IMG/VR virus record: IMGVR_UViG_3300021376_000252
Location: 1-29,714 of that record
Source of the DNA: a virus
Length of the DNA stretch: 29,714 nucleotides
Strand: one strand, 5' to 3'
Position numbers and translations under genes: made by a program
Part shown: positions 7,701 through 29,714 of the stretch, piece by piece
Numbering within the stretch: the first letter of the stretch is position 1
Layout of the letters: every line of letters begins with the position of its first letter
Notes under the pieces: model-generated
Told to the model about the DNA's origin: nothing
The model's database searches: none
The model's input: only the letters and a program-made list of their open reading frames with translations

Positions 7701-10700
7701 ACCAATAACGTCTGCTGTTGGACAGTTAATTGGCAATTCCTTTAATACAAATTCATTTATTTTGAGAAACGTTATTGGATCATTTGACAAACAATCGCCA
7801 ATAAATGCAGATATTAATGTTGTCAATATTTTAGTAGATCAAAATGCATCATATACGGTCAATTCTCAAGTTGAATTAACGGATTCAATTAATCCTGCTG
7901 CAGCAACTGGCATCATATTAGAGAATACTTCAAATCAAAATTCTTTGAAGGTGAAGGTTTTATCAGGAACTTTTGCTGTAGATAATACTAAATTTATAAA
8001 AAGTAATAATTTATTAGATACTGTTGGTTCCAAAATAATCTCAGTATCTTCTTTAAGTAAAAACATAAGTATTAATACATTAGACGATAAAATTGCCATC
8101 GTCAAGACATCTTCTCCCCACAATCTGACTGTCGGAGACCAAGTATCTGTAGATATAAACCCCAACGATTCTACAACACAAACCACTTATTATGTGCGTA
8201 ATAGATATTATCAAAAACTTATCTTATCTTCGCCATCTGTCACTTCTCAAATTACTGATACTGGCGTGGGATCTTTTGATCTATTAAACAGTGGAGATGC
8301 GTATACTACAAACGTTTATCCAAATGTAGAGTTGATATTTGTAGACCAAACAAAAGCGAGAAAAAATATTGGGAGAACAGGTGATGTTAAAAATGCAAAA
8401 GCCACTATAACTGTCTCTACTGGTGGGAAAGTAACTAGCGTATCAATTACTTCAAAAGGTTATGATTATAAAAAAGGAGATATATTAACAGTAACTGATG
8501 CATCTTTATTAAGATCTTCTACAACTACCAATACTCAAAGATTACGACTTCAGGTAGATCATGTTGGATTCTCTTTATTCAATACATCATTATCTGTTAG
8601 TGATCTAACAGGAATATCTATAAATGATATTTTAAAAATAGGTAATGAATTAATTCGAGTTACAGCGATTACTCCCGCAGAAAAAAAATTAACGGTGTCT
8701 CGTGGTATATCGTCTACAATTCCCACAAATCATTATAATAATGCAGAGATTACACTAAATTCAAATATTTACCGCTTTACTGTTGGATCTAGACCTTTAG
8801 GATCATCTTCAAATGCACCGTTTGTTCATTCTTATGATAGTAGTAAAAAAGAGTTAATTTTAAGGTATAATTACACAACATCTACCCCGTTGTCTATAGT
8901 ACAAAGCAGTTCTTTTACTGATTCAAGTACTCCCGCAAAACAAGTAAAAATTTCTGATGTTTATGATGCAGAGTATTTGTTAGAATTTTCTACTGACAAT
9001 ACAAATTTTGTAACAAATCCTGTTTTAGATGTTCAAAAATATTACAAATACAAATTCGATACTAGTCATTCATCAATGACTGGAGTATACTTGAATTTTT
9101 CTCCCAGCATTAATTTTAATATTGCTACTACAGAAAAACAATCTTCTGATATTGAACCAGGATTACTAAATTCTAATATTATATTTAAATTGGGGTTTGG
9201 ATCATTATCAAATTCAAATTCTTTTACTAAAAAATATCCAGTCAAATACTCCAAATATTATTACTTTGCAAAATCATCAATTAAAAAAATAAATTCACAA
9301 TCTTCTTATTTAAATGTTATTGAGGATTCGCTATCTGGTACAAAAAGTATTATATCCACAACTAATAATAGATTTGTTTACAAAATAGATTCTTTCCCGC
9401 AGTATGATGGGTCTGGCAATATTTTTTATACAACAACCTCTAAATTTGCAATAGGTAAAATAAATTCAATTTCTATTCAAAATTTTGGGTTAAATTATAC
9501 TAGGATTCCAATCGTTGAGGGAGTTTTTGTTGCAACTGAAAATTCTGCAACATTATCTGTAAATTACAATCCCATCGAAAAAAATATAAATTCAATTTCT
9601 GTTGTTTCTTCTGGTAGTAATTATTCAAAACCAAAGGCTGTCGTTACTGATGGAAATGGCGCTGATGCAGTTTTTGATGTTGTGCATGGTGGCGGAAAAA
9701 TATTAAATGTAGTTGTAAAAAATAAAGGGAAAAATTATACTTTTGCTCCTACTGTTAAAATTATAGAAACAGACGTAAAATTATTTTTTAAATCTACCAG
9801 TATTGGCATTCCACAATCTGTAAAAATTATATCGAATGGTTCTTCTTTCCATGCCGATAAATCGTTGCGATCGGATTACATAACAAATTATAATATATTT
9901 GTTAAAAATCATGACATAGACGCTTTTTCTGCTGGAGAAAAAGTGGTGCAAAGAAAAGTTTTGGGCGGAGTAGTTCAAGAAGTATTTTCTGGATATGTTT
10001 CCAAGTTTGGGTGGACTAAGGGTAGTAATCTGTTAAAACTAGAAAAAATTTCTGGAACTATTGATAAAAATTTATTACTATACGGAACATCAAGACAAAG
10101 AACTGCTAATATAACAGAATTTTATTTTTCATCTTTTTCTGAAGATATTAGAAGTTATTTTGATAACTATGGGACATACAATTCCGAAAAGGGTAAACTT
10201 GGCGCATCTTCTCAAAGAATCATTGACTCATATTTTTACCAGGATTATTCATATGTTGTAAAATCAAGAACGGCAATTAATGTCTGGAGAGATTTAATAA
10301 AACAAACAACTCATCCAGCTGGGTTTAAACTATTTGGAGAGATTATTATAGAAAGCGATGCTGTTGGAAAAATGAGTTCCTCTGCATCGTTCCAAAACAT
10401 ATCTCATATAAACCTTGCCCCCAAAACAGTTTCTGTTGTTGGCACTCGAAAATTTGTTACGCAAAATATCATATCTACAGATTCTTTAAACATTGAACGT
10501 GGAGTTGGATCAGTATTTCTTAATACTTATGATAATTCAGAAACTATTGCTGGAGAAATTATTTTAAGTGCGCCATTTAATGGTAACTTTAATCCTCGCA
10601 CTGGTCAAGTTGAAGGTACAAAAATATTTAATTTACTAGATAAAAAAACTGGGTTGGCAATAACTCCATTTAATGCTCAGCAATTAATAGTTACTTTAGA

Positions 10701-13194: not shown

Positions 13195-13197
13195 CAC

Positions 13198-13211
13198 TAT
13201 AAATATAAATA
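13198..13211 (+). promoter_or_regulatory. two overlapping T4-type late promoters
   Basis: TATAAATA occurs at 13198-13205 and again at 13204-13211, sharing two bases. They begin 3 bases after the stop of the giant gene and lie 32 bases before the ATG of gp8. Perfect matches to the T4 late consensus. Confidence 0.75.
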
Positions 13212-13243
13212 ACTCAGAAATATTCCCCCCACAGAGATTTTAG

Positions 13244-15100
13244 ATGGCAGCCATAATTTCAGAAAAATTTAGAATTTTTAATGCTCAACAGTTTTTAGAA
13301 TCTTTAACTGAAGGCACTACTGATGCTGGTCCCGATAGAAGCAGAATGTATTTCTTTATTGGTAGACCACAACGTTGGGATGCTTATGTAGAAATTTTTA
13401 ACCAGGGGTCTGGGGTAGGAGCTCCTGTCCCATTCCAACCTGGGGATACGGTTTATGTTGGTACGTCTTATGCAACACTGACATTTAAAGCAACAGTTAG
13501 AGCAGTTTACCCAAATAGTTTACTTCTTTTTGGAGTTGGTCCTACCACATCTTCTGCTCCTCTTGCAGGATCAACATTAAAAGGTTATCTGGGAACATCT
13601 GACACTGGTGCTCAGGCAATCACTGGCGTTTATAGATATGCTGACGAAAACGTGCCGCCAGTTCCCTTAGATAACCAAGAAGAATTAGTTTCTCTTTATA
13701 GAGAAATTATAGCGGCAAAAAGAATTACTTCATCTTACGCAAGATCTGTTGTTAGAAGGTATAACTGGGATTTAGTTGCAAATCCAAAGTATGACATGTG
13801 GAAACCAGATTATTCATCTACCCCCCTTGGAGGAGGGCAGATTGGTAAACAATCGGCAACTGGTGCTACTTCAATTGCCCAGGCAAAATATTATGTTATG
13901 AATAGTAATTACGAAGTATTTAAATGTTTGTATAATGGTGAATCGCCAGCAGATCCAGCTGGAAAAAATGCTGCGTTTGAACCAAAAACTAATCCATCTG
14001 CTGGACAGGGAACTTACAGTGGAGCACTTGGAATTTATTCAGAACCTACAGGATCATATATTTGGAAGTATTTGTTTACAATTCCAACTGATGACGTTTT
14101 AAGATTCCTTTCAACCGATTTTATGCCTATAGTTGAGAAAACTAATGCGTCTAGAGTTGCTACAGAAACTCTTGCTGTAAATGGCGCAATTTCTCATGTT
14201 CTTATAAGCGCAATCGGCGCTAATCATACAAACGGAACCTACTATGCTCCAGTAGTTGGAAATGGTAGTGGTGGTAAGGTGCAAATTATTATCTCTGCTG
14301 GTAAAGTAAATACTGTTAGTGTAAGTCAGTACGGAACTGGTTATACCTATGGATCTGTTGAATTAATTAGTGGTGTTCTTGCCACCGCCACTACATCGGC
14401 AAGAGGTCTTTTCACAGATGCTGCACTTACATCTCCAGCTACTGTTAATGTCAATGCAACTGGTTCTCTGGAGGTAATAATGTCTCCATTGGGTGGTCAT
14501 GGTTCTGATATGGAACAAGAGTTAAACGCAAAAAGAGTTATGACAAACATTCGTTTGACTCAAGTAGAAAGTGCTGGTGATTTTCCTATAGACAATGATT
14601 TTAGAAGAATTGGTTTAATTAAAGATCCATATGAGTTTGGAACAACAACTTTTGCTACTGCAGAAACTTTGAATGGGTTGAGAGCAGTAAAACTTACTGG
14701 AGCAACAGCAAATTTCACCCCAGATGAAACTATTACTCAAACTGTAACTAGTGGACTTGCTAAAGGTACTGTTGTTTCTTGGACTTTGGATAGTGGTTCT
14801 ACAACCGTGGGAGTTCTCAAGTATTTCCAATCTCCAGATCTTCACACTGACAACGGAGTGGTAAAACAATTTGAAAATAATCCAGCAAACCCAATTACTG
14901 GTGATACCTCACTTTCACAAGGATCTGTGGACAACACATTTTCTTCGTCTACTGGTTATCTTGGTGTTACATTTTCAAATGGTTTAGCTTCTCCAGAAAT
15001 TCAACCAAATAGTGGAAACGTAATTTATGTTGAAAATAGAAGATTAATTACTAGAGCAGCAGATCAAATTGAAGATATTAAATTGGTTATTGAATTCTGA
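13244..15100 (+). CDS. 8: baseplate wedge subunit gp8, enlarged
   Basis: The protein has 618 residues against 334 for T4 gp8. The N-terminus (MAAIISEKFRIFNAQQFLES) and the blocks GPDRSRMYFFIGRPQRWD, ARSVVRRYNWD, YYVMNSNYEVFKCLYN and GSYIWKYLFTIPTDDVLRFL (from residue 270) are what I know from cyanophage gp8. gp8 dimers join gp7 in the wedge arm. Extra length comes mainly from the C-terminal half: a G-x-G-Y strand module (about 324-378) and a region with VTSGLAKGTVVSWTLDSG (about 499-516). Two tandem late promoters lie upstream, so gp8 and what follows can be made independently of the upstream giant gene. The Shine-Dalgarno is weak. Confidence 0.88.
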   Translation: MAAIISEKFRIFNAQQFLESLTEGTTDAGPDRSRMYFFIGRPQRWDAYVEIFNQGSGVGAPVPFQPGDTVYVGTSYATLTFKATVRAVYPNSLLLFGVGPTTSSAPLAGSTLKGYLGTSDTGAQAITGVYRYADENVPPVPLDNQEELVSLYREIIAAKRITSSYARSVVRRYNWDLVANPKYDMWKPDYSSTPLGGGQIGKQSATGATSIAQAKYYVMNSNYEVFKCLYNGESPADPAGKNAAFEPKTNPSAGQGTYSGALGIYSEPTGSYIWKYLFTIPTDDVLRFLSTDFMPIVEKTNASRVATETLAVNGAISHVLISAIGANHTNGTYYAPVVGNGSGGKVQIIISAGKVNTVSVSQYGTGYTYGSVELISGVLATATTSARGLFTDAALTSPATVNVNATGSLEVIMSPLGGHGSDMEQELNAKRVMTNIRLTQVESAGDFPIDNDFRRIGLIKDPYEFGTTTFATAETLNGLRAVKLTGATANFTPDETITQTVTSGLAKGTVVSWTLDSGSTTVGVLKYFQSPDLHTDNGVVKQFENNPANPITGDTSLSQGSVDNTFSSSTGYLGVTFSNGLASPEIQPNSGNVIYVENRRLITRAADQIEDIKLVIEF

Positions 15101-15135
15101 TTTTTATTAATAACAAAATTACAAAATAGATCAAA

Positions 15136-18100
15136 ATGCCACAACAGACGAATCTTAGTGTATCTCCATATAATGACGATTTTAAAGCTAGTAAGAATTT
15201 TTATAAACTCTTGTTTAGACCTGGGTATTCAATCCAAACAAGGGAACTAAATTCTATACAATCTATTTTACAAAATCAAATTGAGAGTTATGGTAAATAT
15301 CAATTTAAACAGGGAGATTTGGTAGTACCAGGAGAAGTTTCTCTAAACACTAGATTAGATTATGTAAAACTATCTTCTGTTTCTGAAGTTGCAGTTAATG
15401 TAGATGGGGAGATCGTATTTAAAAAATATGACATTAAGACGTTAGTTGGACAAAAAATACAGGGTGTTACATCTGGTGTTATTGCGTCTATTTTGGCAGC
15501 AGAATATGCTACAGAATTTAGTTCTGATGTTTTGTATATAAACTACATTTCTAGTGGTGATGCATCTGACGAATCTACTTTTAGGCAGGGAGAAACTCTT
15601 GAAGTAGTTGGCGGGATTAATACACCATTACTTATTGTGGGAACGGATGGAAGCGTTTTGCCTACATCAATAGAAGTTGTAAACCCAGATACAGAAGCAA
15701 AATCTTTTGTAGAAAGCAGAGCAATGGGATTTGCTTCTGGAATAAATGTTCAGGAAGGAATTTATTTTGTTAATGGGTATTTTGTAAGAAATAATGCAGA
15801 ACTTTTAATTATAGACAAATATTACGATCAACCTTCCGCAAAAGTTGGATTTAAAATTGTTGAGGAAATTATAACACCAGAACAAGATGCTTCTTTGTAT
15901 GACAATTCAATTGGAAGTTCAAATCAATCTGCTCCTGGAGCACATCGTTTAAAAATTTCCCTAGTTCTACAAAAATATAATTATAATCAAGATACAGATA
16001 AGAACTTTATTCAAATTTTATCTGTAAAATCTGGCGTAATTCAAAAACAAATAAAACCATCAGATTACAATTTATTAGAATCAACTTTAGCTAGGAGAAC
16101 TTATGATGAATCTGGTGATTATGTTGTTGATAATTTTCAAATTGAAATAAGAGAATTTTATCAAAAAAATAATAACTTAGGCGTATTTACATTAGGAAAA
16201 GATGGTCTTGTTAATAATCTCCCCCCATCGGAGGCAGAAAATAAATTAATTGCTACGATTGGGGCTGGGAAAGCATATGTTAGAGGATATGAAATAGTAA
16301 ATAAAGAAACAAAATATATTACTTTAAACAAAGCAAGAGACACTTTAACTAAAGATAATCTCACATTAAAAACTAAGGGCGTTTCATTATTTAAGATTAC
16401 AAATTTACACGGATCAATTCCATTAAATGATGAGGGTTCTGAGGTAACTTCTACTCCAAATATATTTTTAAATTCTGTATTCAATGATGGATCGATTGGG
16501 TTAAATAATACAGAACCATCTACTGGTTTAAAGCAAACAACTTCTAGACGAGGGACTGGATTTGGAATCGATGATGCCATTAAAACCATATACATTGATG
16601 TTACTAACACCACAACTACACTAGGATCAATAACTGCGGCGACTTTTAGCACTATTTTAGATGATATATGGTTTATTAAGACAAGAACTGGATCAACTCC
16701 AGAATCTGTTGATTTTGCTATACCAATTTCTTTTTCAAAAGTAAAATTAACAACAATTGATAGCACTAGAACTTTTCTAGAGTTGACATTACTTGGCAAA
16801 AAAACTCTTTTAGATTTATTTTTAAAAGAGTACGATGATTCTGGTGGATCAAAACAAAGAGAAATATTTCTATCAAGATCCGATGCACTTGCTAATACTA
16901 ATAAATTCGGTCACATAGTTTCTTATAATGAAATTATCACCCCTGTTATTGGCATTGCTAAACCAAAAAATCTTTCTTTAATTGAAAGAGGTGAGGGGTT
17001 TGATCAAAATACTGATATCGTAATTTCCAAAGGAAAATTAACTGACGGAACTTCAGCTTATAATTCAACTTTTGGATTTAATTATTTCAATCCAGTATTT
17101 TTTACTCGATTACTTTTAGATAGTGTCGTACCACAAGATAATTTTGTAAGTCAAAGATTTACTACTGGTAAATATATTACAGGTTTGACGAGCGGGGCGT
17201 ATGCTGTTATAGAGGGATCCTCAACAACTTCATACTCTACTGGTAATATTCTATTTGTAAATACTTTATATGGAACTTTTGTTCCAGGAGAAAGCATTGC
17301 TGACGAATCTGGCAATGTATTACGTATAGCTAATGAAAACACAATTTCTCATTTTATTGTTGAGGCAAGAGGATCTGGTTACACATCTCCTGTGGTATTA
17401 CTAGACGGTGTTAGGTATGACTCTTCTTCTATAGAAATTTCTACAGAGGGCAGTAGCATTTTTAAAGTACTAATTAAAAATAGAGATTCTGTTCAAACAA
17501 GTTATTCTCAACCACCAGTAGTAACAATATCTTCTTCCAGTACACCAGGAGCATCTGCTTCAATTATACCAGTTTTAAATAGAAATACTGTTTTAACATA
17601 TTCTCCACAAAACGTTAAATCTTTCTATTCTACATATGGTTCTGGAAACGCATATTCGTTTACAGCAGATATTGATACAAACAAATCAAAATACTATGAA
17701 TCAAAAATAGTTGCTGACAATACTTTTTCTGGATCTGAGGGAAATAAATTTTTAGAGTGCTCCGCTTTTGGAGGAGATGCATCCAAAGATTTAGTCCAAG
17801 GCGACGTAATTATTTTTACTGATACTTTGGGTAAAACCATAAAATCTATAGTTCAATATGCTACAATGCCAGATGGGGTTAAAAAATCAAGAATTTATTT
17901 AGATTCTTCATTACCTGCTTCTATTGTAAATGCGTCGGTGTTAAGAATTAGACCAGCACTAGAGAATCTGTCTTCTTCTTTAATTTTACCCACTGGTAGT
18001 AAGCAAGTAACTTCTTTGATTAAAGATTCTTCTGACTCTAGATTAAAATATCATATTAGAAGAAATTTTGTGACTACAGGATCTTCAAGTGGTGGGTTAC

Positions 18101-21100
18101 TTACTTTTGCTGCTCAACTAGAATTTGGTACTCAACGTTTTGTTTCTTACGATGAAAGTAATTTCTTAATTACGGTACTGGATAGGGGATCTGCAAGAAA
18201 TGTTCAAAATGGAGATATTCTTTATATAAAACCATCATTTATTAATACTGTATCTTCCTCATCTTCTACTACTGGAGTAACTGCTGGTAGCGTAACCATT
18301 ACATTACCAAATAATTTCTTTACTGATTCTAGTGGTGTTGCAATTACAACAGGATTCCCCAAGTTAAAATTATCTGCAACAATAGAAGTTAGTAAAGCAA
18401 AACCAAGATTAAAAACTTCTGTATCAAATAAAAGAATTATAGTTGTTTCTGCAGGAGATAAAGTTATCCCTTTAAGGGGGCAAGATTACGATACAGAAGA
18501 AGTTGAAATTTATTCATATTCTGATGTCTACCGTTTAAGATATGTTTACGAAGGATCATCAACTAATCCCCCAACAGTAGATACAAATGGCAATTTAATT
18601 TCTGGAACTGATGTTACTAGTAGATTCACTTTTGATGATGGTCAAAGAGATACACATTACGATATATCTAGATTAGTATTAAAACCAGGATCTTCGTCGC
18701 CTACGGGTCAACTTGTAATTGCATTTGATTATTTTGACCATTCTCAGGGTGATTTTTGTACGGTAGATTCTTATTTGCATGAGGCTGGAGTTGGTTCAGA
18801 TGAAATTCCATCATTTAATTCAACTGTTTATGGGAATATTTCATTAAAAGACGTTATTGATTTTAGACCAAAAGCGGACAATTCGGTTATTATTTCTGGG
18901 TTCCAAGATTCAACTTTATTGGCACAACAAGATTATGTAAGTTTTAGAGGAGCGGGTGGGGTGTTTTCATCAACTCCAGCATCGGATAACTCTTTAGAGT
19001 ATACTATATCTTACAGCGAAAAACAATACTTGGATAGAATTGATGCGATCTTCTTGGACAAAAAGGGAAAATTTGTTGTTAAAGAAGGCAACTCGTCTCT
19101 AAGTCCAACAAAACCAGATTTACTTGATGATGCAATTGTATTGGGATATGTTTTTATCCCAGCATTTACGCAATCTAGTAAAGATATTCGTATAACACCA
19201 GTTGACAACAAGCGTTATACGATGAGAGATATTGGTAAATTAGAAAAGCGTATAGAACGTTTAGAATATTATACCACACTTAGCATCTTAGAGCAACAGG
19301 CATTAAACATGCAAGTGAAAGATGATATTGGATTAGATCGATTTAAAAGTGGATTTATAGTAGATAATTTTGAAACTCATAGAATTGGCAACTTAACTTC
19401 AATTGATTACAGATGCGCTATAGATACGCAGCAGGCGGTGCTGCGCCCTCAAGTTAAAGAAGACAGTTTATTACTCCAAGAAGTAATAACAAGAAAAGAT
19501 GAAAGAACTAATGCTGGTTATGTTAAAAATAATGATGTAATTACACTGCCTATATTAAGAAATACAAAACTTCTAGGGAATCCCAACGCTTCTAAAACAC
19601 TAAACCCAAATCCATTTGTTTTAGTTCAATATGTTGGTGATTTAAATATTTCTCCCAATATTGATCAATGGTATGATACTTCAATTGCACCACTAATTTC
19701 TGATAGCAATACAAATTTATTTTCAATTTATTCTGTTGCTGATGTAAAAAATTCGTTTGCTTCTTTTTATAATTCTTTTGTTGTCACTTGGATTGGCGCA
19801 AATAGGTCATTCTTTAATATTTCTTCTTTTGGAACTTCATCCAGTACAACTGCAACAGCATCAGTTACAAAAGCTTCTATTAGTAGTACATCAAATATCA
19901 GTCCTCAAAATAATGAAACTGCCCAAGGAGTGTCAGTAAATTCTTCTGGAAAAAATTCAGTAATTTCTTCAATTACTTATTATACAAGAAGTATTCCAAT
20001 TAAATATAATTTAACAAGGATGAAACCATCTACAAGATATTATGTTTTTATTGATCATATAGATGTAAATAGGTGGGTAAATCCAGACATAATTTACACA
20101 GGAATACCAGGAAATTCTCTATCAGTATTCAGTTCTAAAATTACAACAGATTTAAGTGGGAATGCTAGCGGTATTATTTTAATTCCCGCTGGGTATCCTC
20201 CGATTGAAAATACAACGTGGACTGGAGATGTGAACACTATGTTATATGATGATACTGCAAAGGTAGTTAGATTCCCAACTGGGATTAAAACAATTCGTTT
20301 TACATCTAGTTCAACAGATGCTGATACAAATTCTGTAGAAAGTTATGCAGAATCAAAATTTTATGCCGTGGGTTCGTTACCAGAAAATCCATCTAGCATT
20401 GTTTCAACAGTTCCTGCTATTTTTAAAGCAAACGAAGGTGTTCAAATTGTTGATACCGTTACAAGCAATAAAGAAAAACCAAGTCCTCTTTCGCAAACGT
20501 TTAAAGTTGAAAATTTTGAAGGCGGTGTTTTTGTAACAGGGATGGATTTATTCTTTGAACAAAAAAGTTCTACCATTCCTTTAAGAGTATATTTGACAAA
20601 CGTTGATATTGGCAAACCAGGAAAATATATTGTTCCTGGAACAGAATCTGTATTATTGCCCAATACTTATTTAAGAGTAATTGTAAGTTCGCAAGTTTCT
20701 CTAACTATAAAAGAAGAAATTAAGGGATCTAAATCTGGTGCTTTTGGACCGTTAGATTCTGTGCTTGATAAAAATAACGTTGTAGTTGCTCCCACATCTA
20801 CTGGGTCAGTTACATTGAATAACGATCAGGTTTATACTTTAGTTTTAAGTAATAACAATGGCATATCTTTTGTAGAAGATGAAGTATTAACTATTGCTAG
20901 CGTTACAAAATATAACGCCGCAACTGCTTCTTCAATAGCAGTAACCATTGTAAAAGATTCTGGTAAAATTGTAGATTTAAAAATTAAATCTGTTGGATCC
21001 AATTATGAAAGTGCTGTCCTATTAATTGAAAGTCCCCAATTGCCAGGAGGAAGTACTGCAACAGCAACTGTGGATGTTTCTGGTGGCAAAGTATATAATA

Positions 21101-23256
21101 CTGGCATATCATTATCTGGAAGTAGATACACAAGTCCACCAGCGGTCACTGTACGGGGTTCTGGGACTGGTGCAAGCGGTGCTGTTATAGAATCTATCAT
21201 AGAAATAGATACCCCCGCAGTGGTCATGGGAATCGCCGTAGACGATACTGTAGCGAAACCATCAACAACGCCAACAAGATTTAATTTTAAACATCCAGTT
21301 TATTTACAAAATAATACTGAATATTCATTTGCCGTAGAAACTGATTCTACCGACTATAGGGTATGGGCATCAAAATTAACAGATAAAGATGCAGCAACTG
21401 GCGTCGCAATCACTACTCAACCTTCTTTGGGTTCAGTTTATAAATCTCAAAATACTGATTCCTGGACAGAAGATTTATTTGAAGACATTAAATTTACTCT
21501 ATATCGTGCAGAATTTGATATTTCTAGAACTGCTAATTTATATCTAACTAACGCAAATCTGGGATATGAAAAATTATCTTTAGACCCTATTGAGACATAT
21601 GCGTTAGCAAATACTAATGCTACGTCGCCGTTATTTAAAAATAATAATTCAATTGTAAAAGTTACTCATAGAGATAATGGTTTTGAATCATCTGGAAAAT
21701 CGCACGTTTTCTTTAAAGCATTATCTAATGTCGGTGGATTTACATCTAGTGTTTTAAACAGTTCGTTGTTTAAAATTTCTAATGGAGGATTAGATTTCTA
21801 CAACATAGTTGGTCCAAATAGAGCAAGTTCAAATTCTAACGGTGGTGGAGCTGCTGTTCTAGCATCATTCAATAGGAAATACGAAAAACTCTTTGCGGAA
21901 ATTTCTTATTTACAAGCGCCAAAAACATCAATTGATACATTTGTAAGAACAACAAATATAATTCCAGTAGATTCAAATACACAAAACTACTCTTCATATT
22001 CTGTAAGTGATTATGAAAAAACATTTTTAAATCAAGAGCACTTCTTCTCAAATCAAAAAGTCGTTGCATCTAGAATTAATCAAATTTTAAATAATACAAA
22101 TAATTCATTACAATATAAATTAAATCTTTCATCAACAGTTGCATACCTCTCACCAGTAATTGATCTTAGAGTTTCTTCGGTAAAATTATCTTCAAATAGA
22201 GTCGAATCATCAACAGGAAAAGAAGATAGGTTTGGTAAGCGTTATCAAAAAATATCTCTATTGCCCTTGTATGAATTAAATATTGGCGGAATGGGCACCA
22301 CTGCAATTTTATTAAATCAAACTGTAGAGGGATTAACTTCTGGTGCAAAAGCAGAAGTCGTTAATTTTACCGCAACGCCGCCAACCATAAAAGTTAAAGT
22401 TACAAATAACGGCATATTCCGTCAAGATGAAAGATTATACTTTGGATTACAATCAATACCGACAGGAAATCTAAACGGAGTTAATGTCTCTATTAATCCT
22501 GGTGGAGTAGTATTAAAAACATCTAGTTTCACCATAGGTTCAACTATAGTTGCATTTAATCCAAGTGATACTACTAAAAAATATGATAATACGATAAGTG
22601 GAAAAGTTATTAATTGGGATCCTCAGGCAAAATTATTAACTATTGAAAATGATAAAAATCCGATATCTGGAGATTATACCAGTAAAATTACTCTCGGCAG
22701 TGCATTTACAAGAGCTGCTAATATTGCTGCTCAATCACCAGACATTTTTAGAGTTGGGGATTTAATTTTCTTTGATGGTATTCAAACGGGGGCAGAAAAG
22801 TGTTATGAAATTGGGGATATGAAATTCAGTAATGGAATAGATTTTGTTGATGAGACGGCAGCAAAAAATAGTTCTTCTGTTGCAAAATATGTAACTAAGG
22901 AAATAAGTATAAATTCTCCTGGAACAGCAATTGATACAAGATTAACTGTAAATGTTAAAGATGTAAGTAACCTAAAAGTTTTTTATAAATTTAAATTGGC
23001 ATCATCTCAAGAAAAATTTGATGATATTGGTTGGCGTGCTTTTAACATAGATGGTAATCCAGATGTAAATGAAATTGCAACTCCACAAAATTCATTATCT
23101 TCTCAAACTGAAACACAAGATGCTTACCAAGAATTAAAATTTAGTGTTTCTGGATTACCAGAATTTTCTTCTTTTGCAATCAAAATTGTTATGAAATCTG
23201 TTGATCCATCATACGCACCAAAAGTACAAGACATTAGGACAGTAGCTTCTTATTGA
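15136..23256 (+). CDS. giant DUF4815-type structural protein, 2706 aa (gp9/gp10 position)
   Basis: The N-terminus (SPYNDDFKASKNFYKLLFRP, then GYSIQTRELNSIQSILQNQI) is the classic start of the DUF4815 family, large virion proteins of T4-like cyanophages. Further family blocks are DGQRDTHYDISRLVLKPGS and FDYFDHSQGDFCTVDSY (about 1170-1205), KDVIDFRPKADN, and a helical segment RYTMRDIGKLEKRIERLEYY (from residue 1360). The middle (about 1610-1760) has YYTRSIPIKYNLTRMKPSTR and YVFIDHIDVNRW. Added beta modules: G-x-G-Y type near 614, 738, 775, 1945 and 1986; T-S-G-A type near 110, 683 and 2399. It follows gp8 by 35 bases, where T4 has g9 and g10, so a peripheral baseplate or fibre-connection role is likely. 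No Shine-Dalgarno or late promoter is visible in the 35-base gap, so it is probably co-transcribed with gp8. A 212-residue antisense ORF inside it is a shadow. Confidence 0.85.
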   Translation: MPQQTNLSVSPYNDDFKASKNFYKLLFRPGYSIQTRELNSIQSILQNQIESYGKYQFKQGDLVVPGEVSLNTRLDYVKLSSVSEVAVNVDGEIVFKKYDIKTLVGQKIQGVTSGVIASILAAEYATEFSSDVLYINYISSGDASDESTFRQGETLEVVGGINTPLLIVGTDGSVLPTSIEVVNPDTEAKSFVESRAMGFASGINVQEGIYFVNGYFVRNNAELLIIDKYYDQPSAKVGFKIVEEIITPEQDASLYDNSIGSSNQSAPGAHRLKISLVLQKYNYNQDTDKNFIQILSVKSGVIQKQIKPSDYNLLESTLARRTYDESGDYVVDNFQIEIREFYQKNNNLGVFTLGKDGLVNNLPPSEAENKLIATIGAGKAYVRGYEIVNKETKYITLNKARDTLTKDNLTLKTKGVSLFKITNLHGSIPLNDEGSEVTSTPNIFLNSVFNDGSIGLNNTEPSTGLKQTTSRRGTGFGIDDAIKTIYIDVTNTTTTLGSITAATFSTILDDIWFIKTRTGSTPESVDFAIPISFSKVKLTTIDSTRTFLELTLLGKKTLLDLFLKEYDDSGGSKQREIFLSRSDALANTNKFGHIVSYNEIITPVIGIAKPKNLSLIERGEGFDQNTDIVISKGKLTDGTSAYNSTFGFNYFNPVFFTRLLLDSVVPQDNFVSQRFTTGKYITGLTSGAYAVIEGSSTTSYSTGNILFVNTLYGTFVPGESIADESGNVLRIANENTISHFIVEARGSGYTSPVVLLDGVRYDSSSIEISTEGSSIFKVLIKNRDSVQTSYSQPPVVTISSSSTPGASASIIPVLNRNTVLTYSPQNVKSFYSTYGSGNAYSFTADIDTNKSKYYESKIVADNTFSGSEGNKFLECSAFGGDASKDLVQGDVIIFTDTLGKTIKSIVQYATMPDGVKKSRIYLDSSLPASIVNASVLRIRPALENLSSSLILPTGSKQVTSLIKDSSDSRLKYHIRRNFVTTGSSSGGLLTFAAQLEFGTQRFVSYDESNFLITVLDRGSARNVQNGDILYIKPSFINTVSSSSSTTGVTAGSVTITLPNNFFTDSSGVAITTGFPKLKLSATIEVSKAKPRLKTSVSNKRIIVVSAGDKVIPLRGQDYDTEEVEIYSYSDVYRLRYVYEGSSTNPPTVDTNGNLISGTDVTSRFTFDDGQRDTHYDISRLVLKPGSSSPTGQLVIAFDYFDHSQGDFCTVDSYLHEAGVGSDEIPSFNSTVYGNISLKDVIDFRPKADNSVIISGFQDSTLLAQQDYVSFRGAGGVFSSTPASDNSLEYTISYSEKQYLDRIDAIFLDKKGKFVVKEGNSSLSPTKPDLLDDAIVLGYVFIPAFTQSSKDIRITPVDNKRYTMRDIGKLEKRIERLEYYTTLSILEQQALNMQVKDDIGLDRFKSGFIVDNFETHRIGNLTSIDYRCAIDTQQAVLRPQVKEDSLLLQEVITRKDERTNAGYVKNNDVITLPILRNTKLLGNPNASKTLNPNPFVLVQYVGDLNISPNIDQWYDTSIAPLISDSNTNLFSIYSVADVKNSFASFYNSFVVTWIGANRSFFNISSFGTSSSTTATASVTKASISSTSNISPQNNETAQGVSVNSSGKNSVISSITYYTRSIPIKYNLTRMKPSTRYYVFIDHIDVNRWVNPDIIYTGIPGNSLSVFSSKITTDLSGNASGIILIPAGYPPIENTTWTGDVNTMLYDDTAKVVRFPTGIKTIRFTSSSTDADTNSVESYAESKFYAVGSLPENPSSIVSTVPAIFKANEGVQIVDTVTSNKEKPSPLSQTFKVENFEGGVFVTGMDLFFEQKSSTIPLRVYLTNVDIGKPGKYIVPGTESVLLPNTYLRVIVSSQVSLTIKEEIKGSKSGAFGPLDSVLDKNNVVVAPTSTGSVTLNNDQVYTLVLSNNNGISFVEDEVLTIASVTKYNAATASSIAVTIVKDSGKIVDLKIKSVGSNYESAVLLIESPQLPGGSTATATVDVSGGKVYNTGISLSGSRYTSPPAVTVRGSGTGASGAVIESIIEIDTPAVVMGIAVDDTVAKPSTTPTRFNFKHPVYLQNNTEYSFAVETDSTDYRVWASKLTDKDAATGVAITTQPSLGSVYKSQNTDSWTEDLFEDIKFTLYRAEFDISRTANLYLTNANLGYEKLSLDPIETYALANTNATSPLFKNNNSIVKVTHRDNGFESSGKSHVFFKALSNVGGFTSSVLNSSLFKISNGGLDFYNIVGPNRASSNSNGGGAAVLASFNRKYEKLFAEISYLQAPKTSIDTFVRTTNIIPVDSNTQNYSSYSVSDYEKTFLNQEHFFSNQKVVASRINQILNNTNNSLQYKLNLSSTVAYLSPVIDLRVSSVKLSSNRVESSTGKEDRFGKRYQKISLLPLYELNIGGMGTTAILLNQTVEGLTSGAKAEVVNFTATPPTIKVKVTNNGIFRQDERLYFGLQSIPTGNLNGVNVSINPGGVVLKTSSFTIGSTIVAFNPSDTTKKYDNTISGKVINWDPQAKLLTIENDKNPISGDYTSKITLGSAFTRAANIAAQSPDIFRVGDLIFFDGIQTGAEKCYEIGDMKFSNGIDFVDETAAKNSSSVAKYVTKEISINSPGTAIDTRLTVNVKDVSNLKVFYKFKLASSQEKFDDIGWRAFNIDGNPDVNEIATPQNSLSSQTETQDAYQELKFSVSGLPEFSSFAIKIVMKSVDPSYAPKVQDIRTVASY

Positions 23257-23257
23257 T

Positions 23258-23449
23258 ATGTCAGAATACTTGAAGGTAGAGGGTTATGAAGATTATGTTC
23301 GTGATTTGAATACAGGAGCAATTATAAACACGCAAAAAAAACCAACAAAATCATTTTCTTCTGAGTTCAAAACAATTCAGCAAGATCTAAATAATTTAAA
23401 GAATGAAATTAGTGAGATTAAATCGCTTCTTCAAAAATTATCTCCATGA
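23258..23449 (+). CDS. small conserved-looking protein with C-terminal coiled coil, 63 aa
   Basis: The protein starts MSEYLKVEGYEDYVRDLNTG. The first 25 residues form a compact motif (YLKVEG..DYVRDLNTGAIIN) of a kind I associate with small proteins next to tail-fibre genes in T4-like phages. The last 30 residues (FKTIQQDLNNLKNEISEIKS) have L/I heptads and read as a coiled coil. The ATG comes one base after the stop of the 2706-residue gene, and the TGA overlaps the next ATG (ATGA), so all three are probably coupled. A role as adaptor or chaperone for the following fibre protein is plausible but unproven. Confidence 0.75.
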   Translation: MSEYLKVEGYEDYVRDLNTGAIINTQKKPTKSFSSEFKTIQQDLNNLKNEISEIKSLLQKLSP

Positions 23450-24294
23450 CATTACGTAACGTAGCAAGAACTTTTACTCTAGATCAAGCAAGAATAGAAT
23501 TTAATTTTCTTGCTACGGATGTAAATACTTTATCAACAACACTTAATGAACAAATAGACGATAGAGTTTCATCGTTACTAATTGGTGGCACTGGAGTTTC
23601 TACATCTTATAATGATGTTGCGAATTCATTAACATTATCATTAGATTTTACTGAATTTGATACTACAAGTATTACTGAGGGCACGAATCTTTACTATACT
23701 GACGAAAGAGTTGATGATAGAGTTTCATCGTTACTAATTGGTGGCACTGGAGTTTCTACATCTTATAATGATGTTGCCAATTCATTAACATTATCATTAA
23801 ATTTTACTGAATTTGATACTACAAGTATTACTGAAGGAACTAACTTATATTATACACAAGCAAGATTTGATACTGCATTTACTGCTAAATCAACAACAAA
23901 TCTATCTGAAGGAACTAACTTATATTATACACAAGCAAGATTTGATACTGCATTTACTGCTAAATCAACAACAAATCTATCTGAAGGAACTAATCTTTAC
24001 TATACACAAGCAAGATTTGATACTGCATTTACTGCTAAATCAACAACAAATCTATCTGAAGGAACTAACTTATATTATACCAGTACAAGAGCAAATACTG
24101 ATATAGACAGTAGAGTTACAAAATCTTTTGTAGAACTTCTTGATATAAGTGTAGGAAAGATTTCTTCAACTGCTGCTCCTTCTACTGCGACTAGTACAGG
24201 AACAGCGGGTGAGATAAGATACGATGCACAATACATTTATATTTGCGTCGCAACAGATACTTGGAAAAGAGTTGCTATATCTACTTGGCCATAA
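23446..24294 (+). CDS. tail-fibre-like protein with tandem repeats, 282 aa
   Basis: Three parts are visible. The N-terminus (residues 1-37, MTLRNVARTFTLDQARIEFN...) is a helical attachment segment. The centre is made of repeats: a 52-residue unit (DDRVSSLLIGGTGVSTSYND...) present twice from residue 38, then a 25-residue unit (EGTNLYYTQARFDTAFTAKS...) present three times plus a partial copy from residue 130. The C-terminus (about 224-282) has a GEIRYDAQYIYICVATDTWK motif and ends RVAISTWP, familiar from phage fibre tips. The EGTNLYYT unit is a well-known beta/helix repeat in phage fibres. The repeats are almost identical in DNA, so the length of the shaft may vary between isolates. ATGA overlap with the preceding gene. 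Confidence 0.82.
   Translation: MTLRNVARTFTLDQARIEFNFLATDVNTLSTTLNEQIDDRVSSLLIGGTGVSTSYNDVANSLTLSLDFTEFDTTSITEGTNLYYTDERVDDRVSSLLIGGTGVSTSYNDVANSLTLSLNFTEFDTTSITEGTNLYYTQARFDTAFTAKSTTNLSEGTNLYYTQARFDTAFTAKSTTNLSEGTNLYYTQARFDTAFTAKSTTNLSEGTNLYYTSTRANTDIDSRVTKSFVELLDISVGKISSTAAPSTATSTGTAGEIRYDAQYIYICVATDTWKRVAISTWP
23557..23868 (+). repeat. two direct 156-bp repeats in the fibre gene
   Basis: Unit 1 spans 23557-23712 and unit 2 spans 23713-23868. The first 130 or so bases are nearly identical; they diverge at the end (codons TDERV against TQARF). Each encodes 52 residues with GGTGVSTSYND and TEFDTTSITEGTNLYYT. Confidence 0.85.
23833..24080 (+). repeat. three tandem 75-bp repeats plus partial fourth
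   Basis: Unit starts fall at 23833, 23908, 23983 and (partial) 24058, exactly 75 bases apart, each coding EGTNLYYT then QARFDTAFTAK. Units differ by only a few synonymous bases (for example AACTTATAT against AATCTTTAC). The array is in frame, so gain or loss of a unit would keep the protein intact. Confidence 0.9.
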
Positions 24295-24506: not shown

Positions 24507-24839
24507 ATGTCTGCAATTCCAGTTAATATTGTAATAGATAAGAATGCAAACTTTGATGCGACTTTTTATTTAAGCAATAAAGACGGCACCCCATTAAACT
24601 TAACTGGGTATACTGGGATTTCTGCACTTAAAAAAAGTTATGCTGCTACATCTAGTATACCGTTTACACTGACATTTTTAAATAGAACTCTGGGGGAAAT
24701 TAAAATATCCCTGACTGCAGCGCAAACATCCGTTTTAGATAGAAGAAGATATGTTTATGATATTTTAATAACGTCCACTAACAATTATAAGACAAGAGTT
24801 ATCGAAGGAATTGTTGAGGTTACTCCAGGAGTTTCTTGA
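24507..24839 (+). CDS. small beta-rich virion protein, 110 aa
   Basis: The protein starts MSAIPVNIVIDKNANFDATF. The pattern I-x-x-D-K-N-A-N-F-x-x-T, then DGTPLNLTGYTGISALKKSY, LTFLNRTLGEIKISLTAAQT and DRRRYVYDILI is a small immunoglobulin-like beta fold widely found beside tail fibres in phages (it resembles the N-terminal domain of BppU-type baseplate proteins). It ends in EGIVEVTPGVS. The family in T4-like cyanophages is presumed virion-associated. It starts 7 bases after the preceding coiled-coil gene and its stop shares one base with the next ATG (TGATG). Confidence 0.75.
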   Translation: MSAIPVNIVIDKNANFDATFYLSNKDGTPLNLTGYTGISALKKSYAATSSIPFTLTFLNRTLGEIKISLTAAQTSVLDRRRYVYDILITSTNNYKTRVIEGIVEVTPGVS

Positions 24840-25555
24840 TGGCTTACAATGTAAGAGTAGCAAACAATCAATATAGAATTGGATATAGGCCAAGTCCTCA
24901 ATATGCTGTTGATGTAAATTATGAAATACCATCAAAATCTACACAAAATTCTAATTTAATATTAGATAATATATCTTCTCAATTTAATAACACTAAAACT
25001 ACCTTTTCGTTATCAGTATCTAATACTCCATATTATCCTTTAAATTCTCAACAATTAATAATATCAGTTGATAATGTAGTTTTGGACCCTTCTGTTGATT
25101 ATACGGTTTCGTCCAATAGCATTATTTTCACTACTCCGCCAAACACAAATTCAACTTTTTTTGGCGTTGCTTTGGCAACTACAGCAGATTTGACAAGAAC
25201 TTTAAATTATGTAGTTGATAGCGGTTCCTTTCCCTTGTCTCCTGGTCCAAAAGGAAACATGACAATAGATGTAACGGGAACAATTGAATGTTGGACATTG
25301 ATATCAGATACTATTGGTAATTTAGAATTAGACATAAAAAAATGTAGCTACAATAATTTTCCAAATTTTTCTTCTATTGTTGGTACAGAACCTCCAAAGT
25401 TGGGAGTTTTAAACTCATCAACACAAAGAAAAAATAAAGATGAAAATTTAACTACTTGGCAGAAGCAGGTCAATGCTGGAGACATTTTTCAGTTTGAAGT
25501 TATCTACTCTGTCAACATAACCAGGTTTGTAATTTCACTTAAATTGAAATTATAA
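24839..25555 (+). CDS. virion protein with DGxxQ-type beta module, 238 aa
   Basis: The ATG at 24839 is preferred: it overlaps the preceding stop as TGATG. A TTG three bases upstream would add one residue. The N-terminus MAYNVRVANNQYRIGYRPSP is followed by a module about residues 62-98 (NSQQLIISVDNVVLDPSVDY, TVSSNSIIFTTPP) that closely resembles three modules in the 2827-residue protein. A probable carbohydrate- or protein-contact beta domain with SPGPKGNMTIDVTGTIECW comes next, then a C-terminal strand region. The G-P-K-G stretch is a single collagen-like fragment, not a repeat. Role: probably a small fibre or decoration subunit. The stop lies inside a late promoter. Confidence 0.72.
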   Translation: MAYNVRVANNQYRIGYRPSPQYAVDVNYEIPSKSTQNSNLILDNISSQFNNTKTTFSLSVSNTPYYPLNSQQLIISVDNVVLDPSVDYTVSSNSIIFTTPPNTNSTFFGVALATTADLTRTLNYVVDSGSFPLSPGPKGNMTIDVTGTIECWTLISDTIGNLELDIKKCSYNNFPNFSSIVGTEPPKLGVLNSSTQRKNKDENLTTWQKQVNAGDIFQFEVIYSVNITRFVISLKLKL

Positions 25556-25574
25556 ATACCTCTAGGTATAAATA
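25551..25574 (+). promoter_or_regulatory. two T4-type late promoters in tandem (TATAAATA)
   Basis: TATAAATA occurs at 25551-25558 and 25567-25574, 16 bases apart. The first contains the stop TAA (25553-25555) of the upstream gene. The gene at 25608 has the clearest late Shine-Dalgarno in the window (GGAG, 25597-25600). Two perfect promoters suggest high expression. Confidence 0.75.
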
Positions 25575-27021: not shown

Positions 27022-27053
27022 GGGGGGGTTGGCAAACGATCCCCCCCTTTTTT
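27022..27053 (+). terminator. rho-independent terminator, G7/C7 stem
   Basis: Seven Gs (27022-27028) pair with seven Cs (27041-27047), with a 12-base loop, followed by six Ts. It lies 26 bases after the stop of the 462-residue gene and separates it from the fibre gene at 27072. Confidence 0.85.
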
Positions 27054-27071: not shown

Positions 27072-29714
27072 ATGTCGGTATTCTCGTATGCTGGTACTGG
27101 TAACATAACTTCCCACAGGTTTTTATTTTTAGGGGAGTCGGTTTCGTATAGCTATATTCCAGCAATTGAGGATATTTTTGTTCGCATAGATTTAGGTCCA
27201 CTTTTACTATCAACACCCACAGTTAGTATAGACCATGGTTCTGTAACACAGCAACAATCATATGCCCGCGAAGATTGGGGTTATATACGTTTCGAGCAAA
27301 GTCGTTATGCATTTGGAGACATAAAACTAGCAAGTAGTACAACATTTGTAGTTAAAAAGCACTACGTTGGTAGTGGTCAAATATTTGAATTTGGAAAATC
27401 ACAAACAAGATTAGTAGCCCCGTGGTTAGTTTCTGGTACAGTAAGAGTATCTGGTATAGGACAAACTAGATTTGTCCCCAATTTTAATGCTAATGGTATT
27501 GTAAACTTTAAATCTTTTACAAATATATCAAGATCAGTCCAGCACTTCGGTGCTGGCAAAATATTCTCAACATCACTCTCGTCCACTACACAATCGAGAG
27601 TATTCAACGCAAGTGGTCTTTTCCATGTTCATGGTGCGTCTAAACTGGGTAGAACCAGATCATATCATGGGGAAGGTACACTACCAACATTATCAACAAC
27701 AATAACCAATAAGACATTCTCTTATTCTGGTTCAGGATTTATACTGTCTCTATCATCTAAAATTGAAAATAGAGTATATTCTTATAATGGATCTTCAATA
27801 TTTGATTTTAATTATGCTGATTACGGATCAGTTTCACAATCTGCTTCTTCGTTTATACAATATTCAGATATTGATGTAATTACAAGTGTTAAGGAAGATT
27901 GGGGATTAATTAAAGATACATTTACCAGGTATCCATTTGGAACAAAAAGAATATCTGGAGTATCTGCATCTTCATTCCTACCATCATGGGTTGGATCTGG
28001 CACAATCGCTGTCTCTGGAAGAGCGATTATCAAACAAAAACCGTTGTGGATTGGTTACGGTGTTATTGATATTACTGGATTATCAGTACCAAACTTCTCT
28101 CTATTACATCCAGGTTCTGGTTCTCTCTTTAGTATTGGCGGAGGAGATGAGCGCAGCACTTACGCCTACAGAGGATCTGGTAAACTATTCACAAGAATAT
28201 CATCAGGAGAAGCAAATACAGAAGCATATGTTGGGTCTGGTGCTATCAATGTTTCTAGTTCTGCTGATTTCTCCTTTACTCCAAATTGGGTTGGAGGAGG
28301 AACAATTGAAGTTGGTGGTGGTGTAGGTGATGTATTAATCACACATTGTGAATCTGGATTCGGTCGTCTATTTAATATTTCTTCTAAAGAAGAGAGAAGA
28401 ACTTATTCTTATAATAGTTCTTCTATAGAATTCTTTGAGTATTTAGATTATGGATTAGTTGCCCAAAATTATACTTCAAACTCCGATAATGGTCTTGTAA
28501 CAGAACCAAGTACTGGAGGAGATGACTGGGGATTAATTAGAGATACCAGCACAAATTATCCATTCGGTGGCATACGGTTTGTATCTCAATCCAGAGATGT
28601 CCTGTCAAGATCCGCAGAATCTTCTGGTAGTATTAAAGTATTTGGTGCCAGCAAATTATTTGTTCTGCCAAGGCACAATGGAGAGGGAGTTCTCAAAGTT
28701 TCTGGCAACGCACACGAATCAAATACAGAAACATATGTTGGAGATTCCCAAATTAATATTTTTGGAGAATCAGTATCTTCTAATACAGATGTTTATTTGG
28801 GATCTGGCAATCTCTTTACAACTGCTGGGGCAGCAGAAGTATTCGGTGCCAATCCACCAGAAAATGTATCCTTGTTCAAACTTTCTGGTGTTGCTAATTA
28901 TGCATTCAGACCAAATTGGGTTGGATCTGGATATGTCAATATCGTCCCAGATATTGTTTACGTAACAGCAACTTCGTCTTATAAGGGTACTGGCAATCTA
29001 TTTAATATTTCGTCTAAGGAAGAAAGGAGGACCTATTCTTATAATGGATCCTCAATTGATTACTTTGAATATCTTGATTATGGTCTCGTATCGCAATCTG
29101 CTGTACAGTCCGAAGATTCTGGATACATTGTAGACAATAATGATGGAAGAACTGATTGGGGATTAATTAGAGATACTATTACAAATTATCCATTTGGTGG
29201 TTTGAGATTTGTATCTCTAACAAAACCAAACTTTAGTATAGGACACACAACATCTGGTTATCTGCCAGTGTTTGCTGGCGCCGCAGAATCTTTTGCTATA
29301 CCAGCAATAATCAAAGAATCAACAATTCTTGTTTCTGGTTCTGCTCATTCAGCAATTACCAACAATTATCTTGGTCAAGGATCGCTATTTAATATACAAT
29401 CTGCAGATATTAGCAGATCTCGTCAATATTATGGTTCTGGAACAATATTTGCAATCAATGGTGTTGCAGAATCGTTTGGTGCAAATCCACCAGAACAAAT
29501 TCTACCAATCAATCTTAATGGTTCTGCTAGCACTTCGTTTACTCCAAATTGGAATTCGTTTGGAACAATACGTGTAGAATCTGAACAGGCGTATGTAATT
29601 ACTACAAATGCTTATTCTGGATTTGGTCGTCTATTTGAGATATCTAGTAAGGAAGAAAGGAGAACTTACTCTTACAATACTTCTTCAGTTGTTGAATACG
29701 CTCATCTCGATTAT
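27072..29714 (+). CDS. large repetitive fibre-like protein, incomplete at 3' end (881+ aa)
   Basis: The frame opens at ATG 27072 (MSVFSYAGTGNITSHRFLFL) and stays open for 881 codons to the window end, so the stop lies outside. I checked the frame at several positions (27276, 27900, 28527, 29157, 29712) and it is continuous. The protein consists of a super-repeat of about 209 residues. Each contains an SSKEERRTYSYN...YLDYG block, a DWGLIRDTxTNYPFGGxRF block, and several shorter G-S-G-x-(hydrophobic)-x-x-S-G-x-A strands (for example SPxF, NWVGSGYVNI). Such glycine-rich strand proteins in cyanophages are thought to be tail fibre or adhesin-like virion proteins. No late promoter was found in front; transcription may read through the terminator or start from a diverged promoter. 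Smaller ORFs in the region are shadows. Confidence 0.82.
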   Translation, partial: MSVFSYAGTGNITSHRFLFLGESVSYSYIPAIEDIFVRIDLGPLLLSTPTVSIDHGSVTQQQSYAREDWGYIRFEQSRYAFGDIKLASSTTFVVKKHYVGSGQIFEFGKSQTRLVAPWLVSGTVRVSGIGQTRFVPNFNANGIVNFKSFTNISRSVQHFGAGKIFSTSLSSTTQSRVFNASGLFHVHGASKLGRTRSYHGEGTLPTLSTTITNKTFSYSGSGFILSLSSKIENRVYSYNGSSIFDFNYADYGSVSQSASSFIQYSDIDVITSVKEDWGLIKDTFTRYPFGTKRISGVSASSFLPSWVGSGTIAVSGRAIIKQKPLWIGYGVIDITGLSVPNFSLLHPGSGSLFSIGGGDERSTYAYRGSGKLFTRISSGEANTEAYVGSGAINVSSSADFSFTPNWVGGGTIEVGGGVGDVLITHCESGFGRLFNISSKEERRTYSYNSSSIEFFEYLDYGLVAQNYTSNSDNGLVTEPSTGGDDWGLIRDTSTNYPFGGIRFVSQSRDVLSRSAESSGSIKVFGASKLFVLPRHNGEGVLKVSGNAHESNTETYVGDSQINIFGESVSSNTDVYLGSGNLFTTAGAAEVFGANPPENVSLFKLSGVANYAFRPNWVGSGYVNIVPDIVYVTATSSYKGTGNLFNISSKEERRTYSYNGSSIDYFEYLDYGLVSQSAVQSEDSGYIVDNNDGRTDWGLIRDTITNYPFGGLRFVSLTKPNFSIGHTTSGYLPVFAGAAESFAIPAIIKESTILVSGSAHSAITNNYLGQGSLFNIQSADISRSRQYYGSGTIFAINGVAESFGANPPEQILPINLNGSASTSFTPNWNSFGTIRVESEQAYVITTNAYSGFGRLFEISSKEERRTYSYNTSSVVEYAHLDY
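27744..29714 (+). repeat. super-repeat of about 209 codons (about 627-633 bp)
   Basis: Anchors of the S-S-K block fall at lysine residues 230, 439, 649 and 860 (intervals 209, 210 and 211). The tryptophan of the DWG block is at residues 69, 277, 486 and 696 (intervals 208, 209 and 210). Copies two to four of the S-S-K block are nearly identical (SSKEERRTYSYN); the first is diverged (SSKIENRVYSYN). The DNA at 28377-28460 and 29007-29090 is very similar. Confidence 0.85.

Follow-up and report, generated by a model that had tools for sequence, protein, structure and literature searches.

The window analysed here, a stretch of 29,714 bases that makes up the entire viral record IMGVR_UViG_3300021376_000252, ends inside a repeat-built, fibre-like gene (Table 1). 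The region has the features of the structural region of a T4-like cyanomyovirus, namely baseplate matches (gp6-like, Pfam E 3e-15; gp8-like, 1e-10), pairs of the late promoter motif TATAAATA, and the gene order of Synechococcus phages S-CAM1 and S-CAM3. Two giant ORFs lie in the baseplate region (4711-13194, 2827 aa; 15136-23256, 2706 aa), and S-CAM1 and S-CAM3 have at a similar place a large gene labelled 'virulence-associated'. An ORF of 282 aa at 23446-24294 matched several fibre-type PHROGs and, below the cut-off, DUF285; it contains an identical pair of promoter-like hexamers at 23585 and 23741, and their spacing of 156 b hints at an internal repeat of 52 residues. An Rfam search of the window gave no match.

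The fibre-like ORF runs for 881 residues without reaching a stop, as the first-pass annotation had noted, because the contig ends there. A near-identical locus, L004 (4 mismatches to the window across 12,484 overlapping bases), carries the stop and gives a full gene of 1955 residues with the C-terminus ...PERTYGWIV. Further 3' in L004 are genes for an Mtd_N-domain protein and for a 1088-aa tail fibre with a CBM_5_12 domain, the latter also giving a below-cut-off match of pectate-lyase type. The fibre-like protein matches phrog_11522 (E 4.3e-154 for the part in the window, 0 for the full protein), a family already clustered in PHROGs v4 without assigned function, whose profile of 2130 columns is in the same length class. 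It contains 11.7% glycine and 13.2% serine, with a single methionine and a single cysteine. Pfam searches with the 1955-aa protein (P0002) and with P0005 returned no family at E <= 0.1, and a PDB sequence search with the whole 1955-aa protein returned no match at E <= 1. Weak Pfam matches of the part in the window (DUF1935, 0.29; a coronavirus spike family, 0.36) fell below the cut-off and were taken as chance.

Table 1 Features of the fibre-like gene and its surroundings. Positions are those of the window unless a locus (L number) is given.
Feature	Position	Strand	Remark
110-aa protein	24507..24839	+	phrog_1084 / phrog_3304 (L-shaped tail fibre assembly)
239-aa virion structural protein	24836..25555	+	phrog_10330
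Late promoter TATAAATA, first of pair	25551..25558	+	
Late promoter TATAAATA, second of pair	25567..25574	+	
Partner gene, 462 aa	25608..26996	+	phrog_10467; conserved
Terminator-like hairpin followed by T run	27022..27046	+	conserved between the two genes
Fibre-like gene, 881 of 1955 codons (5' part)	27072..29714	+	phrog_11522; full length L004:9842-15709
Module c0, residues 18-82	27123..27317	+	diverged first copy, orthologous across phages
Small units following c0, 145 residues	27318..27752	+	
Module c1, residues 228-290	27753..27941	+	
Units of ~20 residues after c1, 146 residues	27942..28379	+	
Module c2, residues 437-499	28380..28568	+	
Units of ~20 residues after c2, 147 residues	28569..29009	+	
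Module c3, residues 647-709	29010..29198	+	
Units of ~20 residues after c3, 148 residues	29199..29642	+	
Module c4 (last copy), initial 24 residues	29643..29714	+	
Insert domain of ~180 residues	L031:10595-11152		also L045, L021, L019, L020, L038, L090

Genes of the phrog_11522 type are present in many marine viral contigs. Scanning viral contigs with six aligned full proteins yielded 79 distinct loci among the best 80 of 100 relatives, a scan of genome contigs gave one relative, on a contig of a Synechococcus MAG, and a tblastn search of phage records returned 11 records, all from S-CAM1 and S-CAM3. Loci L001-L003, the window's own record, were excluded before counting. The gene is complete in 57 of 87 loci (including the best 80 of 100 relatives), and 33 of these are distinct at 97% identity. 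After this clustering 32 proteins were used, L072 having been dropped from the indel, period, module and promoter counts; the fibre gene of this locus (10037-17004) is broken into two ORFs, of 516 aa and 1806 aa, probably by a sequence error. Without it, complete relatives measure 1664-2558 residues. The S-CAM1 (AOV57854.1, 2130 aa) and S-CAM3 (AOV58599.1, 2558 aa) proteins, both labelled 'hypothetical protein' in their records, are 34% and 33% identical to the window's protein, and share with it the gene order, a late promoter ahead of the upstream gene, the hairpin and a C-terminal RTYGWI. Shorter and more distant proteins (1369-1529 aa) stand at the equivalent position, behind a phrog_10467 homologue, in S-SSM7 (SSSM7_110), Sf-FS3 (SfFS3_93) and S-SCSM2R ('TolB'). 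They match phrog_11522 at E 7e-13, 5e-15 and 4e-35, respectively, and all three genomes have the intergenic hairpin and TATAAATA 50-52 b ahead of the upstream gene. By eye, the annotated start of SSSM7_110 looks too late (L093, about 10080-10152), and an upstream TTG would give it an N-terminus like that of Sf-FS3. Among open-licence papers we found no literature on this family or its repeat number, and no paper on phage S-SCSM2R.

The expression layout around the gene is shared by relatives. Exact TATAAATA occurs at four sites in the window, all on the + strand (13198, 13204, 25551 and 25567); the first two overlap as a pair (13198-13211) immediately 5' of the gp8-like baseplate gene at 13244. 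For cyanomyovirus S-PM2, one account gives NATAAATA as the late promoter (PMC2984593). Among 75 loci with a complete upstream gene, which overlap (several contigs occur twice) and so are not independent, the 150 b before the upstream gene contain TATAAATA in 73 and at least two copies of it in 62, and the 150 b before the fibre gene contain it in none. It recurs within 150 b past the fibre stop in 55 of 62 loci. Over all loci, the + strand carries 0.207 motifs per kb and the - strand 0.003. The phrog_10467 partner gene has a homologue in 80 of 90 loci, and the other 10 stretches begin inside the fibre gene or within ~350 b of it. Of 38 distinct sequences separating the two genes, 36 contain a hairpin followed by a T run that a strict pattern recovers, and the remaining two have a hairpin with a variant C run. 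When 20 of these 38 sequences were aligned, four of nine predicted pairs had at least one both-sided change, although the covariation term was small (-0.68). With a G+C-rich hairpin, a T run and compensatory changes, the element has the features of an intrinsic terminator and is predicted to be one.

These results agree with the first-pass annotation that the gene follows a terminator and has no evident promoter, since the hairpin is present and no TATAAATA, even with one mismatch, occurs between it and the start codon. The annotation had also called the expression signal unexplained. This is now largely answered by the doubled late promoter upstream and the conserved hairpin, with the step between them supplied by reasoning: the order of promoter, partner gene, hairpin, fibre gene and next promoter is conserved, so the fibre gene would depend on read-through, and it is probably transcribed in this way. 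Late transcription would start at the doubled TATAAATA that precedes the phrog_10467 gene and would probably be attenuated at the conserved hairpin, leaving fewer fibre transcripts than partner transcripts. Alternatively, the hairpin might protect or process the 3' end of the partner mRNA, with the fibre gene served by its own promoter of an unrecognised type. A conserved hairpin and T run right before a gene would indeed block transcription if efficient, and an AT-rich stretch (..ATTG..T..ATTATG) just 5' of the hairpin is similar in many relatives. However, the late promoter motif is absent from the 150 b before the fibre gene in every one of the 75 loci and the bases from hairpin to start codon are poorly conserved between clades, and we regard a separate promoter as unlikely. 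A sigma-70 scan of the window found 32 sites against 33.4 expected and was therefore uninformative.

The protein itself is built on two nested repeat levels, a unit of ~20.5 residues throughout and a super-repeat confined to the N-proximal part. Each super-repeat consists of a module of ~65 residues, with the motif SSKEERRTYSYN...DYGLV...DWGLI...YPFG, followed by ~145 residues of small units, and the module recurs every 209-211 residues. The small unit is glycine-rich and reads about [YHWF]-x-G-S-G-x-[IL]-F...A-E-S, with 43 anchored units in L013. In the average of 32 proteins, self-matching is strongest at an offset of 20, with 82, 81, 41, 83, 40 and 21 among the next. A glycine Fourier peak at 20-21 residues, or about half that, was seen in all nine proteins tested; in three of the nine the whole-protein peak did not exceed the best of 50 shuffles (L013, 9.1 against 10.4; L011, 6.6 against 8.2; L077, 6.4 against 10.3). 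We also considered whether the giant neighbouring ORFs share the small unit and rejected this, as a double-unit profile fits well only the fibre gene and its S-SCSM2R equivalent; two window ORFs reached E 0.16-0.17, and the other candidates and all shuffled controls were unmatched.

The super-repeat had been proposed in the first-pass annotation from two series of anchor residues, and both hold exactly (SSK lysines at 230, 439, 649 and 860; DWG tryptophans at 69, 277, 486 and 696). Local alignment recovers it in 10 of 10 pairs of the five copies, with z = 10 to 75 (100 shuffles each). The growth by one residue per copy that was read from the same anchors is seen in the window (209, 210, 211) but not in relatives, whose module-end steps run 208, 209, 211 (L014), 247, 246, 246, 253 (L027) and 247, 246, 242, 252 (L049), and we regard it as a coincidence. 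The first copy is diverged, as described, with 29-35% module identity to the others against 43-67% among those. The accompanying statement that later copies are more alike applies only to the middle pair c2/c3 (67%), as the last copy, c4, is again divergent (43-55%). In modules c1-c4 (window 27753-29198 and L004) the ends are conserved (YSYN..., D[WY]..I...YPFG), and a middle of ~20 residues is highly variable and a candidate surface loop.

The 1955-aa protein has five modules. The fifth is cut by the window end and complete in L004, where it ends at residue 920, and ~1035 residues of small units then lead to the stop. Further copies downstream had been anticipated, an expectation only half borne out, as the downstream sequence adds no module beyond the completed fifth. 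In 30 of 32 proteins 801-1048 residues follow the last module; the remaining two, both of the S-CAM3 clade, have 1383 and 1585. The window's period of 209-211 contrasts with 242-252 in the S-CAM1-type L049, and the S-CAM1 protein has a longer module (~100 residues), whereas that of S-CAM3 has globular inserts and fewer recognisable modules. Module matches number four in S-SSM7, four in Sf-FS3 and one in S-SCSM2R. The module profile scored seven in L048, two of which are halves of one module, giving six; in the S-CAM3 clade it overlooks one or more diverged modules that are visible by eye, so that three there is a lower bound. Structure prediction of one unit, suggested in the first-pass annotation, was carried out and yielded no fold: AlphaFold2 gave no structure for a single-chain super-repeat (window residues 224-520; mean pLDDT 45.7, pTM 0.17) from an input of 61 related segments from viral-contig loci, where 108 such segments are listed. 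A trimeric fibre would explain this failure, without being proved by it.

Furthermore, the shaft contains optional domains in some relatives. Proteins otherwise 91-95% identical differ by the presence or absence of a block of 180-185 residues near residue 208 (L031/L084, L045/L027, L021/L027 and L019/L027), and in L020/L015 the difference appears as 41+146. The block is non-repeat sequence, occurs as two sequence types (~45% identical) at one site, and had no match among Pfam and PDB sequences. Its AlphaFold2 model is a beta sandwich (pLDDT 67, pTM 0.72), which among solved structures best matches reelin repeats (Foldseek E 3.8e-6; Z 13.7, rmsd 3.0, 142 residues), followed by matches that include carbohydrate-binding modules of families 35 and 36. 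Similar domains are predicted in other cyanophage fibre or baseplate proteins. The S-SCSM2R equivalent (L091:16131-20240) combines an N-terminal module and small units with FG-GAP repeats inserted in the shaft (PF14312, E 5e-43). The window's protein has neither the reelin/CBM-type insert nor FG-GAP repeats. The modelled insert domains support an attachment role of the family, with the qualification that fold likeness alone shows no function.

The genomic place and neighbours of the gene, the composition and repeat architecture of its product and the swappable domains of relatives lead us to read the protein as most likely a fibre shaft. Like tail fibres in general, it is a long chain made of short glycine-rich repeats and varies in length by steps. 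In T4, the long tail fibre proteins gp34 and gp37 are long, repetitive, late-transcribed and encoded near baseplate genes, and the 1955-aa protein resembles them in outline. It shares no sequence match with them, and Pfam and PDB sequence searches placed it in no known fibre family, gp34/gp37 included. The protein could instead be a structural virion part that does not bind a receptor, such as a whisker, baseplate strut or connector, with the Mtd_N and CBM proteins recognising the host. The recognition-type domains of the downstream genes (Mtd_N, CBM_5_12) would suit such a division, as would the uniform repeat region of the window's protein, which has no globular insert. We nevertheless think it quite improbable, because sugar-binding-type or FG-GAP domains in the shafts of relatives fit surface-exposed recognition, and stepwise length change suits a fibre better than a fitted strut.

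Copy numbers, which the first-pass annotation had proposed to compare among related phages, differ by whole super-repeats. The super-repeat step is clade-specific, being 208-211 in L013 and L014, 242-255 in L047, L049 and near relatives (the last step in L008 is 262), and mostly 250-275 in more distant proteins. Compared with L013, to which it is 72% identical, L014 lacks exactly 210 residues, i.e., one super-repeat, and separately 82 residues, i.e., four small units. The other whole-unit indels (L078/L080, 259; L073/L078, 262; L085/L051, 267; L027/L041, 246; L047/L008, 246 as 94+152) each approximate the spacing of their own clade. The second copy in L014 is a hybrid, composed of parts of L013 copies 2 and 3 (c2/c3). 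Its left part is 65% identical to L013 at the equal position and 31% to the next copy, and its right part is 67% identical to the next L013 copy and 18% to its own position, with the junction at residue 480, within the module. Such a hybrid matches the expectation for recombination between adjacent copies. The same sliding test did not resolve the junction of L047/L008 and gave no score for the left side of L046/L080. Linker identity between the extra L013 unit and its neighbour reaches only 40%, which is below the L013/L014 divergence, so the extra unit predates the split of the two. This comparison favours a loss in L014, or else a gain in L013 from another phage, over a fresh duplication.

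Assembly can collapse repeats, and the probable sequence error in L072 is a reminder that these copy differences might be metagenome assembly artefacts. We consider this very improbable. In four pairs compared, intragenic copies are 58-64% identical at the DNA level with a longest shared word of 20, and are thus too different for collapse by the usual mechanism; in addition, the same proteins were found again in independent contigs, and the isolate genomes S-CAM1 and S-CAM3 show the architecture.

A tree of 81 copies from 16 of the 32 proteins, in which 44 of 78 inner branches were well supported and 21 open, separated the end copies from the middle ones. The c0 copies of 8 phages cluster (support 100/100), as do the last copies of 7 phages (97/78), and middle copies mostly cluster by lineage. 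With end copies conserved between phages and middle copies turning over, growth is internal and not toward the 3' end. The first-pass annotation had suggested extension at the 3' side through added copies, and although the first copy is the most diverged in the window, this is hardly credible, given the orthologous last copies, the lineage-specific middle copies and the module-free tract behind the last module (~1035 residues in the full protein, 801-1048 in 30 of 32 proteins). Its broader claim, of a fibre-like protein built through super-repeat duplication, is supported. In the mechanism that we propose, recombination between adjacent copies would lead to in-frame gain or loss of whole super-repeats. 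Length would then change stepwise, with both end copies and the C-proximal 800-1050 residues retained.

Taken together, our analyses make it likely that the gene product forms the long shaft of a tail-fibre-type protein in a T4-like cyanophage, with its length changed by super-repeat recombination and its expression late, by attenuated read-through. From this reading we infer a location in the virion, a role as attachment fibre, a probable trimer and the read-through itself. Changes in repeat number are a known kind of event in phage fibres; collagen-like repeats in Streptococcus phages form fibres with variable repeat number, whose length changes by whole repeats. Those differ from the present protein in unit sequence and unit size, and the window's protein has two nested levels. 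In S-TIM4, mutations under selection have been described in a different tail-fibre-type protein, of 2235 aa (PMC6224464). One account lists g34 and g37 among the T4 genes missing from cyanomyoviruses, and allows that some 'missing' tail fibre proteins may be structural proteins without known function (PMC2984593). A bolder proposal, which we hold only tentatively and think more doubtful than the fibre reading, is that the family is a functional stand-in for the T4 long tail fibre genes, which many cyanomyoviruses lack, with reach set by how many super-repeats of 210-260 residues the N-proximal half holds, optional sugar-binding-type domains in the shaft and an amount set by the conserved attenuator that separates it from the partner gene. 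The nesting of the repeats, the turnover of inner copies between conserved ends and the conserved attenuator-like layout appear to be new, and we found no literature on them among open-licence papers.

Stepwise super-repeat change is thus a plausible way for cyanophages to alter the length of a probable host-attachment fibre. Wide recurrence, a fixed gene place and length change in whole steps make the relation between fibre length and host range testable, for instance with S-CAM1, S-CAM3 and S-SSM7. The layout of promoter, gene, hairpin and gene would likewise allow tests of dosage control during late transcription.
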